This document shows positions 5,113 through 46,638 of a stretch of 56,684 nucleotides of DNA, in pieces. The translations under genes and the position numbers were made by a program. The stretch lies in the NCBI GenBank assembly GCA_020853635.1, contig JADYYN010000192.1:1-56684 (forward strand), written 5' to 3'. How positions within the stretch are numbered: position 1 is the first letter of the stretch; each line of letters opens with the position of its first letter. The notes under the pieces are model-generated. The model was not told where the DNA came from, searched no databases, and saw only the letters and a list, made by a program, of their open reading frames with translations. This DNA is from Gemmatimonadaceae bacterium. Its GTDB lineage: Bacteria > Gemmatimonadota > Gemmatimonadetes > Gemmatimonadales > Gemmatimonadaceae.

Positions 5113-6678
5113 ATGCCGGTCCGGCGCCACCGGCCTGGCTCGCTTTCGCGATCATTTCACTCCCCTTCCCAGAGACGTCACGTGCACGTGGATCCGTTTC
5201 CTCGCCTGCGACTTCGCCCGCCGCCTGTCGGTGGGCACGCATGCTCGTCGAGGCCTCACGACGCGCCGCCTGGTGCAGCGCAAGCCGCTCCGATTCTGAC
5301 CGCACTCCTCGCGGCGGCTATGCTACTCGGAGCCGGCGGACTGCACGCACAGGAGGTCCGCTCTGCCTCCGCCGCGGATTCACTCCTCGCAACGCTGCTG
5401 CCGGCTCCGGTGCGCACGGCGATCGTCTCGGCCTCGCCGGCGCTCGTCGTGCGACGCGCGGAAGTCGCCGCGGCCGAGGCGCGCAGGGCGGCGGTCGGCT
5501 TCGCGCCGGCTGCCGTGCTCGGCTTCGAGTCGGAGGAGTCGCGCAATGGCCGGCTCGATCGCGGCAATACCCGCGTCGACCTGTCACGTGAGTTCCTCTC
5601 CGGCGCGCGACGCCGCAGCGAGCGCGAGGCTGCCGAGGCCGACGTGCGCGTCGCGCGAGTGGCGCTCGTCATCGAGGAGCGGCGCGCGCTGGCCGCGGCC
5701 GCGCGCGCCCTCTATGGCGCCGCCGGATGGCGTGGCATCACGCGGCGACTGGCCGCGCAGGACTCGCTGCTCGCCTCGGCTGAGGTGTCCGTACGCGCCC
5801 GGTTCAGCGTCGGGGAGTCGCGCTACGTCGATGTGCTGCGGCTGCGGACCGAACGCCTCCGTGTCCAGACGGATCGCGCGACCGCCGAGACCGAAGCCGA
5901 GGCGGCCGCAATCGCTCTCGTAGCGATCGTTGGAGGAGACAGCGCGGCCATCCGGGCTGCCAGCGACGCGATCGACAGCGCCGATGCCTCGGGCGTCCGG
6001 CGGTCCGGTGCGCGCGTCGTCCCGGTGGTGCTCACGCTGCGGCTGCCAGAGGCGCCGCCGATCGACTCGCTGGTCGGGCTCGCGGCGGACGTACAGCTGG
6101 CCGAGGCGCGCATCGCGCAGGCGCGCGCCCAACGCCAGCTCATCCTCGCGCGCCAGCGCCCGGCCTTCTCGGCCTCGCTGGGCCTCCAGCGCATCGGCCC
6201 CGAGGGGGACGAGGGGGCGGCATTCGGTCCCGTCATCTCGGCCGGCATGACGCTCCCCTTTACGGTGGCGCGCGCCAACCGCGCCGGACTGGCCGCGGCC
6301 GAGCAGCAGACCGCCGTCGCGCTCGCCGCGCGCGCCGCGACGGTGACGAGTGTGCGGGGCGCGGTCGCGGCAGCCCGGGCGCGCTACGAGGCGGCGAGGC
6401 GGCGAGCGGCCACCTTCGATGCGACGCTGCTCCAGGCGGCGCGCGAGGAGCGCGAGAGCGCGCTCGCCGCCTATCGCACGACGGACATCTCGCTGCTCGA
6501 GCTGCTCGACTTCGAGCGCGCCCTGGCGCGCGCCGAGATCGAACGCACGCAGGCGACACTGGACGCGCTGACCGCCCTCGCGGAGCTCCTGTCGGGAGCG
6601 CCGTCACCGGTCACCGCTTCTTCCCTCTCCACGACCCAAGCCGAGACCGGCACTGGCCGGGCCACCGATGACCAATAG
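5113..6678 (+). CDS. czcC: CzcC-like outer-membrane efflux protein (TolC family)
   Basis: Forms the outer-membrane channel of the RND metal exporter. The N-terminal ~50 residues are unusual. A signal peptide follows (ILTALLAAAMLLGAGGLHAQ), then two outer-membrane-factor repeats with long Ala/Arg/Glu helices (e.g. RAEVAAAEARRAAVGFAP; SVGESRYVDVLRLRTERLR; AAYRTTDISLLELLDFERA), typical of CzcC. The true start may be downstream of 5113 (in-frame GTG at 5182 or 5188), since the signal peptide sits about 55 residues in. The stop overlaps the next gene by 11 bases, indicating translational coupling in czcCBA. Confidence 0.87.
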   Translation: MPVRRHRPGSLSRSFHSPSQRRHVHVDPFPRLRLRPPPVGGHACSSRPHDAPPGAAQAAPILTALLAAAMLLGAGGLHAQEVRSASAADSLLATLLPAPVRTAIVSASPALVVRRAEVAAAEARRAAVGFAPAAVLGFESEESRNGRLDRGNTRVDLSREFLSGARRRSEREAAEADVRVARVALVIEERRALAAAARALYGAAGWRGITRRLAAQDSLLASAEVSVRARFSVGESRYVDVLRLRTERLRVQTDRATAETEAEAAAIALVAIVGGDSAAIRAASDAIDSADASGVRRSGARVVPVVLTLRLPEAPPIDSLVGLAADVQLAEARIAQARAQRQLILARQRPAFSASLGLQRIGPEGDEGAAFGPVISAGMTLPFTVARANRAGLAAAEQQTAVALAARAATVTSVRGAVAAARARYEAARRRAATFDATLLQAAREERESALAAYRTTDISLLELLDFERALARAEIERTQATLDALTALAELLSGAPSPVTASSLSTTQAETGTGRATDDQ

Positions 6679-42860: not shown

Positions 42861-44037
42861 GACTCTTCTGGCAGAACTGGGGGGTTAGACGATTCGGAGG
42901 CAGGAGAATGGCGCGCGTTGGGGTGGCCGACTGGGGGAGGTAGCTTGTAGTGCTCTACTTCTCGGAGGTATCCATGGCCAGGGCCGTGACGAGGCGGAGG
43001 AGGAGAGCTTCGTGCGTGAATATCCCGCCGACCCGCCTGCGCCGGCGGACCTCGACGTGGAAGCGCTCCAAGACGTTCGTCGACCGTAGCCTGCGCCGCG
43101 CCACATCCTCGGGAAGCACGTAGACGCCGAGCGTGTCGCCGCTGGTATCCTCGAGCCAGTCGGCCAGCTTGCCCGTCCGCGGTCGGAGCGCGGTGGCGAG
43201 GGCGGCCAGCCGCTGCTGGGCCTCCGCGGCGGTGGGGACCGCCCACGCGTCGGTCAGCCCGCGTGGCACCTCGCGCTGCAGCGTATCGTTGGAGATATGG
43301 CTCAGGGCATTCCGCTGGTAGTGCACCTGGTAGCGTTGGTGCACCGCCTCCGGGAAATAGCGACGGACACTCTCCACGATCCCGCGATGTTCGTCCGACA
43401 CGACGTCGGCAACGCCCTGCAGGCCCCGCTCGGCGAGGTCGTGGAAGACGTGGGCCCAGCTTTCGCTGCTCTCGGAGGCCCTCGACCACGTCCCGAGCAG
43501 TTCGCAATCGCGGATGCCGAACACGACAGAAGGACGGTATGGCGCACCTGCCCTTCCCGCCGCACGCGCTACACCAGCGCCTCGACGACGAGCTGCGGAT
43601 ATGGATGCTCGTTCAATCGGCGCTGGCGCCACGCCGTCAGCGTCACGTCCAGCTTGCGGGCGAGGGTACTCACGGCGCTGGCACTGACGTTCGTGCCGCA
43701 CACGACCTCGATCACAGCCGTGACTTTGCGGGTGGACACGCCGTGGAAGTACATCTCCGCCATCGCGAGGACGAGCGCTTGCTCGGCGCGCTCGTACCGG
43801 GCGAAGAGCGACGGTTGGAACACCCCTTCGCGATCGCGCGGCCCCGAGAAAGGTCTCGAACTCGCGCGCGAGTGCATCCTGCACGGCGACGGCGACGAGG
43901 TCGCGCAGCGCATCGGGGGCCACGGCTCGTTCGAGACGCAGGCCGGTCCTAGTCTTGTATTCTGAGGTCATCGGTTGTCTCTCCTGGGCCAGGCGGGGTT
44001 GGCGCCCCGCAGGTTGGTTAGCGCTCCCAGAAGAGAC
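42861..44037 (-). mobile_element. IS256-family insertion sequence with terminal inverted repeats, transposase frameshifted
   Basis: Terminal repeats GACTCTTCTGGCAG (42861-42874) and, on minus, GTCTCTTCTGGGAG (44037-44024) match at 12 of 14 positions. Inside, the minus strand from ATG 43971 reads a mutator-type transposase in pieces: LERAVAPDALRDLVAVAVQD; then in another frame FQPSLFARYERAEQALVLAM, FHGVSTRKVTAVIEVVCGTN, EHPYPQLVVEAL and a stop; then in the first frame ESWAHVFHDLAERGLQGVAD, VVSDEHRGIVESVRRYFPEA, LRSTNVLERFHVEVRRRRRV. The second Asp (SDEH) and final Glu are present, but the first Asp position reads Glu (VVEAL). At least two frameshifts make it inactive. No target duplication is visible. 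Confidence 0.85.
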
Positions 44038-45101
44038 GGCCGATGGGCTCATCGCGTGAGGGGCCTCCAGCCGCTTCACCCCGGCGCTCACGTGGCGAAG
44101 TACACAGCTCGATGCACACTACTACCAGCTCGGTGCGATGTATTCGGAGCGTCGTGTGCTTCAAGCGAACGACGGCGTGGTCTCTTCGGCCGGCGCCGCG
44201 GGGATTTCGCGCTGCCGAGGGGCAGCGCGCACCATTGGCACGACGGTGCAGCAGGGTGTGCCAGCACGGCGGCTGCGTCGGACGACCGGGCGTTCATGTC
44301 CTGCGACGCTGCGCCGACATCGACGGCTCGGGCGACCGCGGCCAGCGTTGCAGCGCCCCCGTCGACAGTCAGGGCGATCTCGGCGGGTGACGCGACGTCC
44401 GGGTCGGCCGACGTAGCGATTTCACCTGGCGACGCGCAGCCAACAGCGCACGACGAGGCGGAAACGGCGAAGCACCTGTCAGAAAGTCTGGAAATGATCC
44501 ATAACCACTGAAATCGGAGGCGGTGTTGGCGCGACAGATGGAGCCAGCAGCCGTCGACGGGCCGGTGGTCTCGGAGGGACGCATGGATCAGCTGGCGCAG
44601 AGGGTGTAGACGCCATTGGACACTCAGTCGAGCGAACGGCAGTACTGGAAGTCGTCGGACTTACCGGACTCTCCGAAGCGCTGCACGTCGTGTATCCTCG
44701 CACGGTGATCCACCAGTGCGTCGTGCACCTCATGCCTCGCAGCACTCTCCGCCGCGTTTCGCCTCTCGCACCTCCACCGAGTTCGTCTGATGGCGATGAT
44801 GCGCCACCGTTGCTTTGCGCTCGGTCTTCGCAGCCGAGGTTGCATTTCATCGCGTCACCGGTGACGTGGCGCACCGCGCGGTTAGACGTCCGCGTCACAA
44901 GGCACCTTCGTAGGCCTCGCTGTTGGCGTCGGGAGCGAAGGCTGAGCGACATCAGGATGGCGGCAGTTTGAGGCGCAGTGGGTGGAGGGCGAGCAGGTCG
45001 AGGTGACGATGCATCGCAGTCGATGCCAAGCTCGAGCGAGGTGGGCGACAAGGACGCGCTGGCGGCGCTTCGCCACGCGCGCACGACGACTATCAGTACG
45101 C
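44038..45101. other. Gene-poor kilobase with IS debris
   Basis: No intact gene is convincing. Minus and plus open frames here are compositionally odd (Arg/Ser/Pro/Ala-rich). A plus-strand piece at about 44140-44510 has DDRAFMSCDAAPTSTARA-like Ala/Thr-rich text without family. An IS256-type fragment lies at 44628-44748. The last 100 bases lead into the beta-propeller gene. Confidence 0.4.
44628..44748 (+). pseudogene. IS256-type transposase fragment, opposite orientation
   Basis: The plus frame reads TAVLEVVGLTGLSEALHVVY, then PRTVIHQCVVHLMPRSTLR, matching the GL-x-G-x-x-EAI ... P-x-T-x-x-Q-x-C-x-V-H-L-x-R-x-S block of mutator-type transposases. No further match on either side. It is distinct from the element at 42861-44037. 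Confidence 0.5.
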
Positions 45102-46199
45102 ATGGGGCTCGTCGCGAGCGCTACCGCTGGCTGCGCAGATTCGGCGCCCGCCCCATCGTGGCTCGGATCGTATCCGTCAGAGTCGTTCGCGCATGGATTG
45201 CCCCTCACTCACCCCGCGCCTGACTATCGCGAGGGCTTTCGATCCGACTCGCTGAGCACGCCAGAGTTGCTAGGCGACTCCTCCGCGTTCAGCAGAATCA
45301 GCGCGCTTCGCGTCTTTGGTCGCCGACTGCTGGTGACTGATGCCGGCAGCCCCGAGCATTTAGTCGTGGTCGACCGCGTCTCCGGCGCCGTCGAGAGCCG
45401 GTTCGGAAGACACGGTGAAGGCCCTGGCGAGTTCCGTGATCCTCGATGGACGCACCATCACGCATCCGACGCCAGTCTCGCGTGGGTGTATGACTACACC
45501 TTGCGCCGCTTGGCGCTTGTTCGCCTCGATGGTAGCGTCCGTGAGCGGCTCGTGCGGACCCTCCGACTGGATCAAGGGCCGTACTTGTCCGAACCCGTCC
45601 TGCTCGGAGACCGCTTCGTCAGCAATGGTTATTTTGTCAGCCACACGCTAACCGTGGCTGACACGCAATGGAGCTCGCTCACTCACCTTGCCGGCGAGTC
45701 GCTCACGATTGCTACTGACGCGGATCCGATGTTTCGCACTCGACTGAACCGCACCCGCACGGCGGTCGATCCTGCTCACTCGCGTCTGGTTCTGGTGTTT
45801 CAGTCCGCCAACCGAATTGACATCTTCGATTCGGCGCTGCGTCATCGCGGATCGATTTCCGGACCGAGAGATACTAGGGTCGCACTTCGCACCATCGAAA
45901 CACCACGCGGCCCAACCACACGGTGGAGCGACGAGAACGAGCTCGCCTACGTGGGCGTGGATGCGACCAATGAGTTCATTTTTGCACTTTTTTGTGGCCA
46001 TTGTGGAGCGAGGGCGCTGCCCCGACGCGTGCACGTCTTCACGTGGGAAGGAAGATTCGTCTCAGAGCTGAACCTCGATCGATCGGTCGAGACGATCGCC
46101 GTTTCTGCCGATGGTCGGACACTCTACGGCTCGATCGACGAGCCATATCCCGCGATCGCGGCGTGGAGGGTTCCCGTGGAATCCGTGCGCCCCCCATAG
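45102..46199 (+). CDS. Secreted 6-bladed beta-propeller protein (putative lipoprotein)
   Basis: A 365-residue protein with a lipobox-like start (VASATAGCADS) and repeated four-strand blades: LRVFGRRLLVTDAGSPEHLV and VVDRVSGAVESRFGRHGEGP GEF (NHL-like G-x-G-P-G-E-F), LAWVYDYTLRRLALVRLDGS, ANRIDIFDSALRHRGSI, VHVFTWEGRFVSELNLDRSV, ISADGRTLYG-like ending. It resembles the BF3-type 6-bladed propellers common in Bacteroidetes. ATG 45102 is chosen because it opens the lipobox; the frame extends upstream to 44982. It is followed 76 bases later by a secreted Cys-rich peptide gene. Confidence 0.75.
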   Translation: MGLVASATAGCADSAPAPSWLGSYPSESFAHGLPLTHPAPDYREGFRSDSLSTPELLGDSSAFSRISALRVFGRRLLVTDAGSPEHLVVVDRVSGAVESRFGRHGEGPGEFRDPRWTHHHASDASLAWVYDYTLRRLALVRLDGSVRERLVRTLRLDQGPYLSEPVLLGDRFVSNGYFVSHTLTVADTQWSSLTHLAGESLTIATDADPMFRTRLNRTRTAVDPAHSRLVLVFQSANRIDIFDSALRHRGSISGPRDTRVALRTIETPRGPTTRWSDENELAYVGVDATNEFIFALFCGHCGARALPRRVHVFTWEGRFVSELNLDRSVETIAVSADGRTLYGSIDEPYPAIAAWRVPVESVRPP

Positions 46200-46275
46200 C
46201 GACAGTCGATGATGTAAACAGCTCATGCGCTGTCAGACCGCTCGACTCCACGCCCTTCATCACGGAGCGACTCCG

Positions 46276-46515
46276 ATGCGACCGAAGACTCAGCTCTTGT
46301 TCGCAGCTGGCTTGGCTGGTGCACTGGTTGTCCCAGTTGCCGGAAAGGTGCAGAACAATCGAATCACGATTGGCGGAAACGACGCGTGCGCACAGGCGTG
46401 CACGCCTCAACCACTGTGCGACGAGTGCTCACCAGAGCCGTACTACTCCTGCTCGGACTTGGGCGGATTCATCAACGTCGAGAACTACCGCTGCACCGGA
46501 GGGGGTTGTTCGTAG
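46276..46515 (+). CDS. Small secreted Cys-rich peptide
   Basis: A 79-residue protein with a signal peptide (QLLFAAGLAGALVVPVAG, cleavage near residue 23) and a mature part with seven cysteines (C38, C42, C48, C51, C59, C73, C78), including DACAQAC, LCDEC and CTGGGCS near the end. ATG 46276 is preferred over upstream starts because it begins the signal peptide. It sits right after the beta-propeller gene, ahead of a strong hairpin. In Bacteroidetes, NVEALA-type signal peptides of similar size pair with 6-bladed propeller genes; I see no NVEALA motif, so the parallel is structural and positional only. Confidence 0.65.
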   Translation: MRPKTQLLFAAGLAGALVVPVAGKVQNNRITIGGNDACAQACTPQPLCDECSPEPYYSCSDLGGFINVENYRCTGGGCS

Positions 46516-46594
46516 TGGCTCCCTTCATGCAGCGATGAAGCCGACCGTTGCTCGCGACGAGCGTCGGCCACTCGCGTACAGTCAAACAGCAAGT

Positions 46595-46627
46595 CACCCC
46601 GCCAACCCCATTGGGGCTGGCGGGGTG
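46595..46627 (+). terminator. Strong hairpin after the propeller-peptide genes
   Basis: CACCCCGCCAACCCC and GGGGCTGGCGGGGTG form a 15-bp stem with one wobble around an ATT loop. It lies 80 bases past the peptide stop. No U-run follows, so it may act as a transcript-end stabiliser or weak terminator. Confidence 0.65.
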
Positions 46628-46638
46628 ACATTGCTCCT

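Follow-up and report, generated by a model that had tools for sequence, protein, structure and literature searches.

A TolB-Like Propeller Gene and a Cysteine-Containing Secreted Mini-Protein Gene as a Putative Envelope Pair in Gemmatimonadota

Introduction

The DNA considered here, hereafter the window, is a stretch of 56,684 nucleotides from a Gemmatimonadaceae bacterium (phylum Gemmatimonadota; assembly GCA_020853635.1, contig JADYYN010000192.1, positions 1 to 56,684 of the forward strand). Between 45102 and 46515 it carries two adjacent genes on the forward strand, the first encoding a TolB-like propeller, predicted to be six-bladed, and the second a secreted mini-protein of 79 residues with seven cysteines, called the peptide below. 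Comparison with related genomes shows that this pairing recurs across the phylum, and the two genes may form an envelope pair in which the peptide would be the propeller's small partner or ligand.

The Two Genes in the Window

The propeller gene occupies 45102..46199 on the forward strand, stop codon included, and was assigned by Pfam and by alignment with 13 homologs. Its product exceeds the curated cut-off of the Pfam family TolB_like (PF15869) with a modest score, 31.4 bits against 29.2, and its match to DUF5128 is sub-threshold; no function for PF15869 was found in the literature searched. A six-bladed fold is presumed; A3, a profile of 14 sequences with the window protein among its rows, shows partial sequence similarity to NHL-repeat propellers of known structure. 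The start codon is uncertain, as an in-frame ATG (45009) and GTG (44982) lie upstream of the ATG at 45102, and the A3 match on the window, whose protein is itself a row of the profile, begins before that ATG, at 45090. From ATG 45102 the leader reads MGLVASATAGC, without a basic residue and with ATAGC, a poor lipobox, after a very short hydrophobic stretch (by eye); with the start also uncertain, the earlier assignment of this propeller as a lipoprotein is weak in the window. Among its relatives a plausible lipobox was seen by eye in L071, L073, and L065, and others resemble ordinary signal-peptidase substrates. Directly upstream, at 42955-44091 on the reverse strand, lies a Mutator-family transposase (Pfam) that is broken across frames, and the interval 44.1-45.0 kb has a non-coding look by eye; the propeller gene may therefore have a rearranged 5' end.

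The peptide gene (46276..46515, forward strand) begins after a gap of 76 bases. A GGAG at 46264..46267 on the same strand, eight bases before the ATG, is its likely ribosome-binding site, and a similar purine-rich stretch precedes many related peptide genes (by eye). The gene is real: a profile of twelve related peptides, with the window sequence excluded, ranks the window peptide first among 914 open reading frames (ORFs) of the window, with an expectation value (E) of 1.2e-9 against 0.0099 for the runner-up. Residues 1-24 (46276..46347, forward strand) form the predicted signal-peptide region, as judged from the sequence and from A4, a 13-row alignment of the peptides, and the proline at residue 20 within it is nearly invariant among relatives. 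The seven cysteines are residues 38, 42, 48, 51, 59, 73, and 78. Three of them, C38 (in NDAC), C51, and C59, make up a core (46387..46452, forward strand) that is invariant in 13/13 rows of A4; C42 and C48 are extra cysteines of the window peptide within the span of this core, and the C-terminal C73 and C78 (46492..46509, forward strand) align with the YxC...C pair of several five-cysteine relatives. No lipobox precedes the first cysteine (by eye), so that lipidation of the peptide, a possibility raised in the preliminary description of this locus from its letters alone, is not supported. The 76-base gap, the 79-residue signal-peptide protein with seven cysteines, and the strong hairpin beyond it, all given in that description, are confirmed by the sequence.

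The peptide is divergent. Neither Pfam nor NCBIfam gives a match to it at E up to 5, and the A4 rows share 17-36% identity with it. A BLAST search of 179 genomes of the family gave matches at E up to 0.1 in 31 genomes, its own included, and the best non-self match had an E of 0.0012; these non-self matches were judged from their reading frames to be due to chance.

Recurrence of the Pair Across the Phylum

For the phylum, 395 genomes taken from a larger group were searched with profile A3, and a score gap separates its full-length matches (at least 84 bits) from generic propellers (at most 68 bits). The locus set used below, taken from the full-length matches listed, consists of 61 TolB-like loci besides the window, L065, which is from Bacteroidales, and L231, which duplicates L072, having been left out; these 61 are partly dependent, the propellers and peptides of L196 and L197 being identical. 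A mechanical scan searched near each propeller for ORFs of 40-130 amino acids whose product begins with a hydrophobic leader and has three or more cysteines. For 68 TolB-like propeller ORFs, which here include L065 and L231, a peptide-like ORF was found on the same strand in 42 cases and on the opposite strand in four, and stricter limits gave 33 against two. Generic propellers in the same scan gave 7/24 on the same strand against 4/24 on the opposite strand, and 6/24 against 1/24 under the strict limits. Of these strict six, L230 repeats the TolB-like locus of G055 in cut form, and L132 and L225 are single cases; the other three, L150, L151, and L161 (genomes G046, G069, and G067), share one conserved secreted protein of about 126 amino acids with six cysteines. 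Its gene lies 510-560 bases upstream of the propellers, which are generic and of the DUF5128 type, and this is possibly another peptide/propeller pair. The generic candidates are separated from their propellers by more than 500 bases, whereas the peptide genes of TolB-like loci are mostly close, the two genes overlapping by 4 bases in L073.

After curation, a peptide gene was recorded at 41 of 62 TolB-like loci, namely 36 scan loci accepted by hand, the window, G048 (where the peptide lies at the end of another contig), and three loci added by profile (G423, G416, and G224). In G057 (L072) the peptide gene is reduced to its C-terminal part beside a DsbA-like gene, and it is intact in the related genome G055. 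At L067 (G058) a transposase-like ORF was seen by eye just downstream of the TolB-like propeller, with no peptide gene there. A first census under different limits, covering 87 propellers with the TolB-like ones included, had yielded nine candidate ORFs, several of them implausible.

The search was also run in the opposite direction, from peptide to propeller. With an E limit of 0.001, the A4 profile gave 30 hits, in 26 of the 390 genomes of the phylum that were searched. For 25 of these hits, a TolB-like propeller scoring 84 bits or more lies at least partly within the 1.5-kb flanks. Thirteen of the 30 hits are training rows of A4. The remaining 17 comprise 12 adjacent to a propeller, two at contig ends (G291 and G048), and three unlinked hits, which are weak (G333:C20, G189:C2, and G206:C2; E 7e-5 to 7e-4). 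The 12 adjacent hits include three genomes new for the peptide, G416, G423, and G224, and otherwise fall in loci known from the scan. In one genome, three tandem peptide genes stand upstream of a single propeller (G337:C284:44504-45240). Recurrent co-location with a conserved cysteine core, which the preliminary description had named as support for its idea, is thus what the genomes of the phylum show from either starting point. The peptide/propeller pair is not described in the portions of the literature consulted, PMC11651109 and PMC10434189 among them.

The same description had named purifying selection on the peptide frame as a further expectation, and the family agrees with it. For pairs with a proportion of nonsynonymous differences (pN) under 0.35, the ratio of nonsynonymous to synonymous substitution rates (dN/dS) is 0.10-0.42 in the largest peptide clade, that of genus g78, when three pairs with saturated dS are left out; L174/L177 gives 0.27, and the clade formed by L206, L207, L215, and L216 gives 0.36-0.80. 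Peptide frames within the family are thus under purifying selection; the values pertain to its other members, since no relative of the window peptide is close enough for a dN/dS of that peptide itself. In the largest clade, conservation is higher in the cysteine-containing part than in the signal part.

Cysteine Number and a Natural Fusion

Cysteines were counted after residue 22 in 39 peptides, the profile-added G416, G423, and G291 not being among them. Five cysteines are present in 24 peptides, three in seven, seven in two, nine in two, four in three, and six in one; the number is therefore odd in 35/39 and even in 4/39, and it is odd in 22/26 once relatives of more than 50% identity are removed (binomial p=2.7e-4). 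The seven three-cysteine peptides occupy just the columns of C38, C51, and C59, and the counts 3, 5, 7, and 9 rise by two. The first core cysteine, referred to as C1, is usually, not always, preceded by alanine; this Ala-Cys is absent in three of the even-cysteine peptides and present in the fourth, L073.

In G224, a one-contig genome, a peptide-like start and the propeller share a single open frame, which spans 583 codons from stop to stop. The peptide-like start has a leader containing LPIAF, followed by GEC...YIC, and the propeller starts at residue 260, with no separate propeller leader left (by eye). When the 68 propeller ORFs were searched with the peptide profile, this frame was the only one matched at E up to 1, at residues 189-245 with an E of 3.7e-7. 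We take this natural fusion as evidence that peptide and propeller act together. In addition, C2 and C3 are retained in the fusion and the C1 position is not a cysteine, a loss that hints at a role of C1 in joining two chains.

Neighboring Genes

Neighbors of the propellers were identified by clustering of ORFs, by Pfam searches with representatives of the leading recurrent clusters, and then by profiles trained on these loci. A sigma factor of the extracytoplasmic function (ECF) type (Sigma70_r2 and Sigma70_r4_2 by Pfam in two representatives) is encoded at 20/61 TolB-like loci and 0/76 generic loci, and a long anti-sigma-like protein with an N-terminal zf-HC2 domain (Pfam, two representatives) at 21/61, about one third, and 0/76, respectively. 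One anti-sigma-like protein has an AhpC/TSA-like C-terminus that falls below the Pfam cut-off. In 18/61 loci, 16 of which also have the ECF sigma gene, the anti-sigma-like gene is upstream and has the same orientation; in three (L173, L180, and L211) it is on the other strand. In L188, L194, and L198 it overlaps the peptide gene by 4 bases. This resembles known systems of an ECF sigma factor with a zf-HC2 anti-sigma factor, with the difference that searches of the window with profiles from the related loci found no sigma, anti-sigma, or DsbA-like gene. A link of such a sigma/anti-sigma pair to a peptide and a propeller was not found in the literature searched. DsbA-like profile matches occur at 10/61 TolB-like and 4/76 generic loci, and a further such match lies at the G048 contig end; five representatives match DSBA or Thioredoxin_4 in Pfam and one, L183, has no Pfam match.

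Downstream of the peptide gene in the window, a hairpin at 46588..46635 is a probable terminator (fold -40.2 kcal/mol; z -7.9 against 200 shuffles). As it is flanked by the peptide gene on one side and a convergent gene on the other, it may serve both strands. The two genes beyond it are convergent; Pfam identifies one as a TonB receptor, and the other is called SusD-like from its position and by eye, with no Pfam match at E 0.01.

Other small cysteine-rich ORFs were observed near propellers. Downstream of the propeller in L175 (G423), at about 5229-5855, are two short, cysteine-rich ORFs that have LDLDAL leaders; by eye they resemble lanthipeptide precursors, and no Pfam match was found for them. 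In the window's own genome, a small signal-peptide protein with eight cysteines is encoded at L116 (C138, 3196-3411) next to a propeller of the DUF5128 type, and this locus also contains a DsbA-like match. Further small cysteine-rich signal-peptide ORFs are present at the generic-propeller loci L074 (8011-8235), L080 (3559-4011), and L165 (377-601).

Comparison With the NVEALA Peptides of Bacteroidales

The preliminary description drew an analogy with Bacteroidetes, in which short cysteine-containing signal-peptide proteins of the NVEALA type are found beside six-bladed propeller genes. As far as the propellers are concerned this analogy stands. A single-protein search of the named genome collection yielded one locus, L065 of Bacteroidales; A3 hits 12/149 genomes of the same order, in agreement with homology to the window's propeller, and short signal-peptide cysteine proteins lie near the TolB-like propeller there, as in the window. 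The NVEALA motif was found in eight ORFs of the 25 Bacteroidales loci searched, distributed over 5/24 loci and including one cut duplicate; no ORF at 53 loci of the present phylum (L172-L224) has it. Four of six motif ORFs tested pass the Pfam cut-off for NVEALA (PF14055). These results and L065 are the basis of our statement on Bacteroidales, because the general scan for signal peptides and cysteines was uninformative there (24 loci; 7/30 propeller ORFs with a candidate on the same strand and 8/30 on the opposite). In L065 three consecutive cassettes of cysteine peptide, propeller, and thioredoxin-like lipoprotein were seen by eye; two of the three propellers matched A3, and two of the peptides are near-identical in the leader and divergent after it.

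As for the peptides themselves, relatedness was not detected. The window peptide has no match to the PF14055 profile at E up to 5 and no NVEALA motif by eye, eight other peptides of the phylum likewise gave no match, and alignment of the NVEALA-type set with the present set by hhalign returned a probability of 3%. The two groups differ in further respects. The suggestion that an odd cysteine number leaves one thiol free agrees with the mostly odd counts of the family described here, whereas the number, counted after the motif, is even in 6/7 distinct NVEALA-motif ORFs; and the neighboring genes are thioredoxin-like in Bacteroidales (by eye), in contrast to the sigma and anti-sigma genes at part of the loci of this phylum. 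The propellers of both groups are related by sequence, which is not shown for the peptides. The word NVEALA was not found in the literature searched.

Proposed Function and Alternatives

We estimate a probability of about 0.5 that the two genes form an envelope pair, in which the TolB-like propeller has the peptide as its small partner or ligand. The peptide would then be exported by its signal peptide and oxidized outside the cytoplasm, one cysteine would stay unpaired (C1, at a guess), and the peptide would work in the same compartment as the propeller; where an anti-sigma factor is present, the pair would set its activity. The recurrence of the pair, the shared proline of the signal region, the three-cysteine core, the mostly odd cysteine number, the fusion, and the anti-sigma-like genes at about a third of the loci, mostly with an ECF sigma gene, are the sequence features from which we infer physical binding, a disulfide pattern, a free thiol, and anti-sigma control; a function in export or as a receptor may be envisaged as well. 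Signaling through an anti-sigma factor would be a reasonable extension at the loci that have one. The window is without sigma or anti-sigma genes, and therefore only the two-gene core can be claimed there.

Several observations count against this envelope pair. Small secreted cysteine proteins lie near generic propellers too, and the pairing therefore extends beyond the TolB-like group; no peptide gene was found at 21/62 loci, several of which are cut by contig ends. Gene order varies, the peptide following the propeller in four loci (the window, L066, L179, and L182) and preceding it elsewhere. The 18 same-strand anti-sigma loci are not independent events, because 11 of them come from genus g78 (L185, L188-L190, and L192-L198), and the enrichment of DsbA-like genes is mild. 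The odd-cysteine statistic is inflated by common descent; the accepted peptides with an even number (L073, L205, L217, and L222) fit the family poorly by eye, and the A3 alignment has no conserved propeller cysteine able to receive a thiol. The fusion was found once only. Finally, both AlphaFold models, with predicted local distance difference test scores (pLDDT) of 32.5 (the window propeller, from its single sequence) and 45.5, are too poor for use.

Some of the same evidence could be accommodated differently. The peptide might have a thiol or metal site that is loaded by DsbA- or thioredoxin-like neighbors, with the propeller as carrier or cap; the DsbA-like matches (including that at the G048 contig end), the thioredoxin-like lipoproteins seen by eye after propellers in Bacteroidales, and the sub-cut-off AhpC/TSA-like end of one anti-sigma-like protein would be in keeping with such a redox or metal unit. 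However, DsbA-like genes occur at generic loci as well, no CxxC was seen by eye in the AhpC/TSA-like ends inspected, and Pfam gave no significant match for either of the two thioredoxin-like proteins of L065 that were tested; we regard this explanation as unlikely. It is rather improbable that the peptide is a bacteriocin-like weapon against neighbors, with the propeller protecting the producer or aiding release. A small, secreted, cysteine-rich, and divergent product, three tandem copies in G337, and dN/dS up to 0.80 in one clade would suit a weapon, but in the largest clade the cysteine part is the best conserved, the sigma/anti-sigma linkage suggests regulation, and no secretion or modification gene was seen among the recurrent neighbor clusters, of which the leading ones were examined by Pfam, with no search aimed at modifying enzymes.

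If the peptide were a chance neighbor of the propeller, a small secreted protein with no relation to it, this would account for the lack of a convincing BLAST relative in the 179 family genomes, for the spacing of 76 bases between genes that are not coupled, and for the presence of small secreted cysteine proteins near some generic propellers. However, the recognition of the window peptide by a profile built without it, the phylum-wide linkage, and the G224 fusion make coincidence very improbable.

Beyond the envelope pair as such, a more elaborate scheme of thiol-peptide envelope signaling can be sketched, which we offer as speculation and consider doubtful. An exported mini-protein with one free cysteine, C1, would be presented or captured by the propeller; the large outer part of the zf-HC2 anti-sigma factor would read the state of propeller and peptide and release the ECF sigma factor. 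C1 would couple the peptide to its partner and become dispensable once both are one chain, as in G224, and the NVEALA peptides of Bacteroidales would be a separately evolved ligand of the same kind of propeller.

Concluding Remarks

If the two genes do form an envelope pair, they would represent a two-part envelope system that is apparently undescribed. The peptide belongs to a second family, not detectably related to the NVEALA one, that is linked to the same kind of propeller in another phylum. The NVEALA peptides and their propeller neighbors have been an orphan pair, and the comparison made here may turn an annotation curiosity into a specific, testable hypothesis, in which the propeller would be the constant part of the system and the peptide its exchangeable part.
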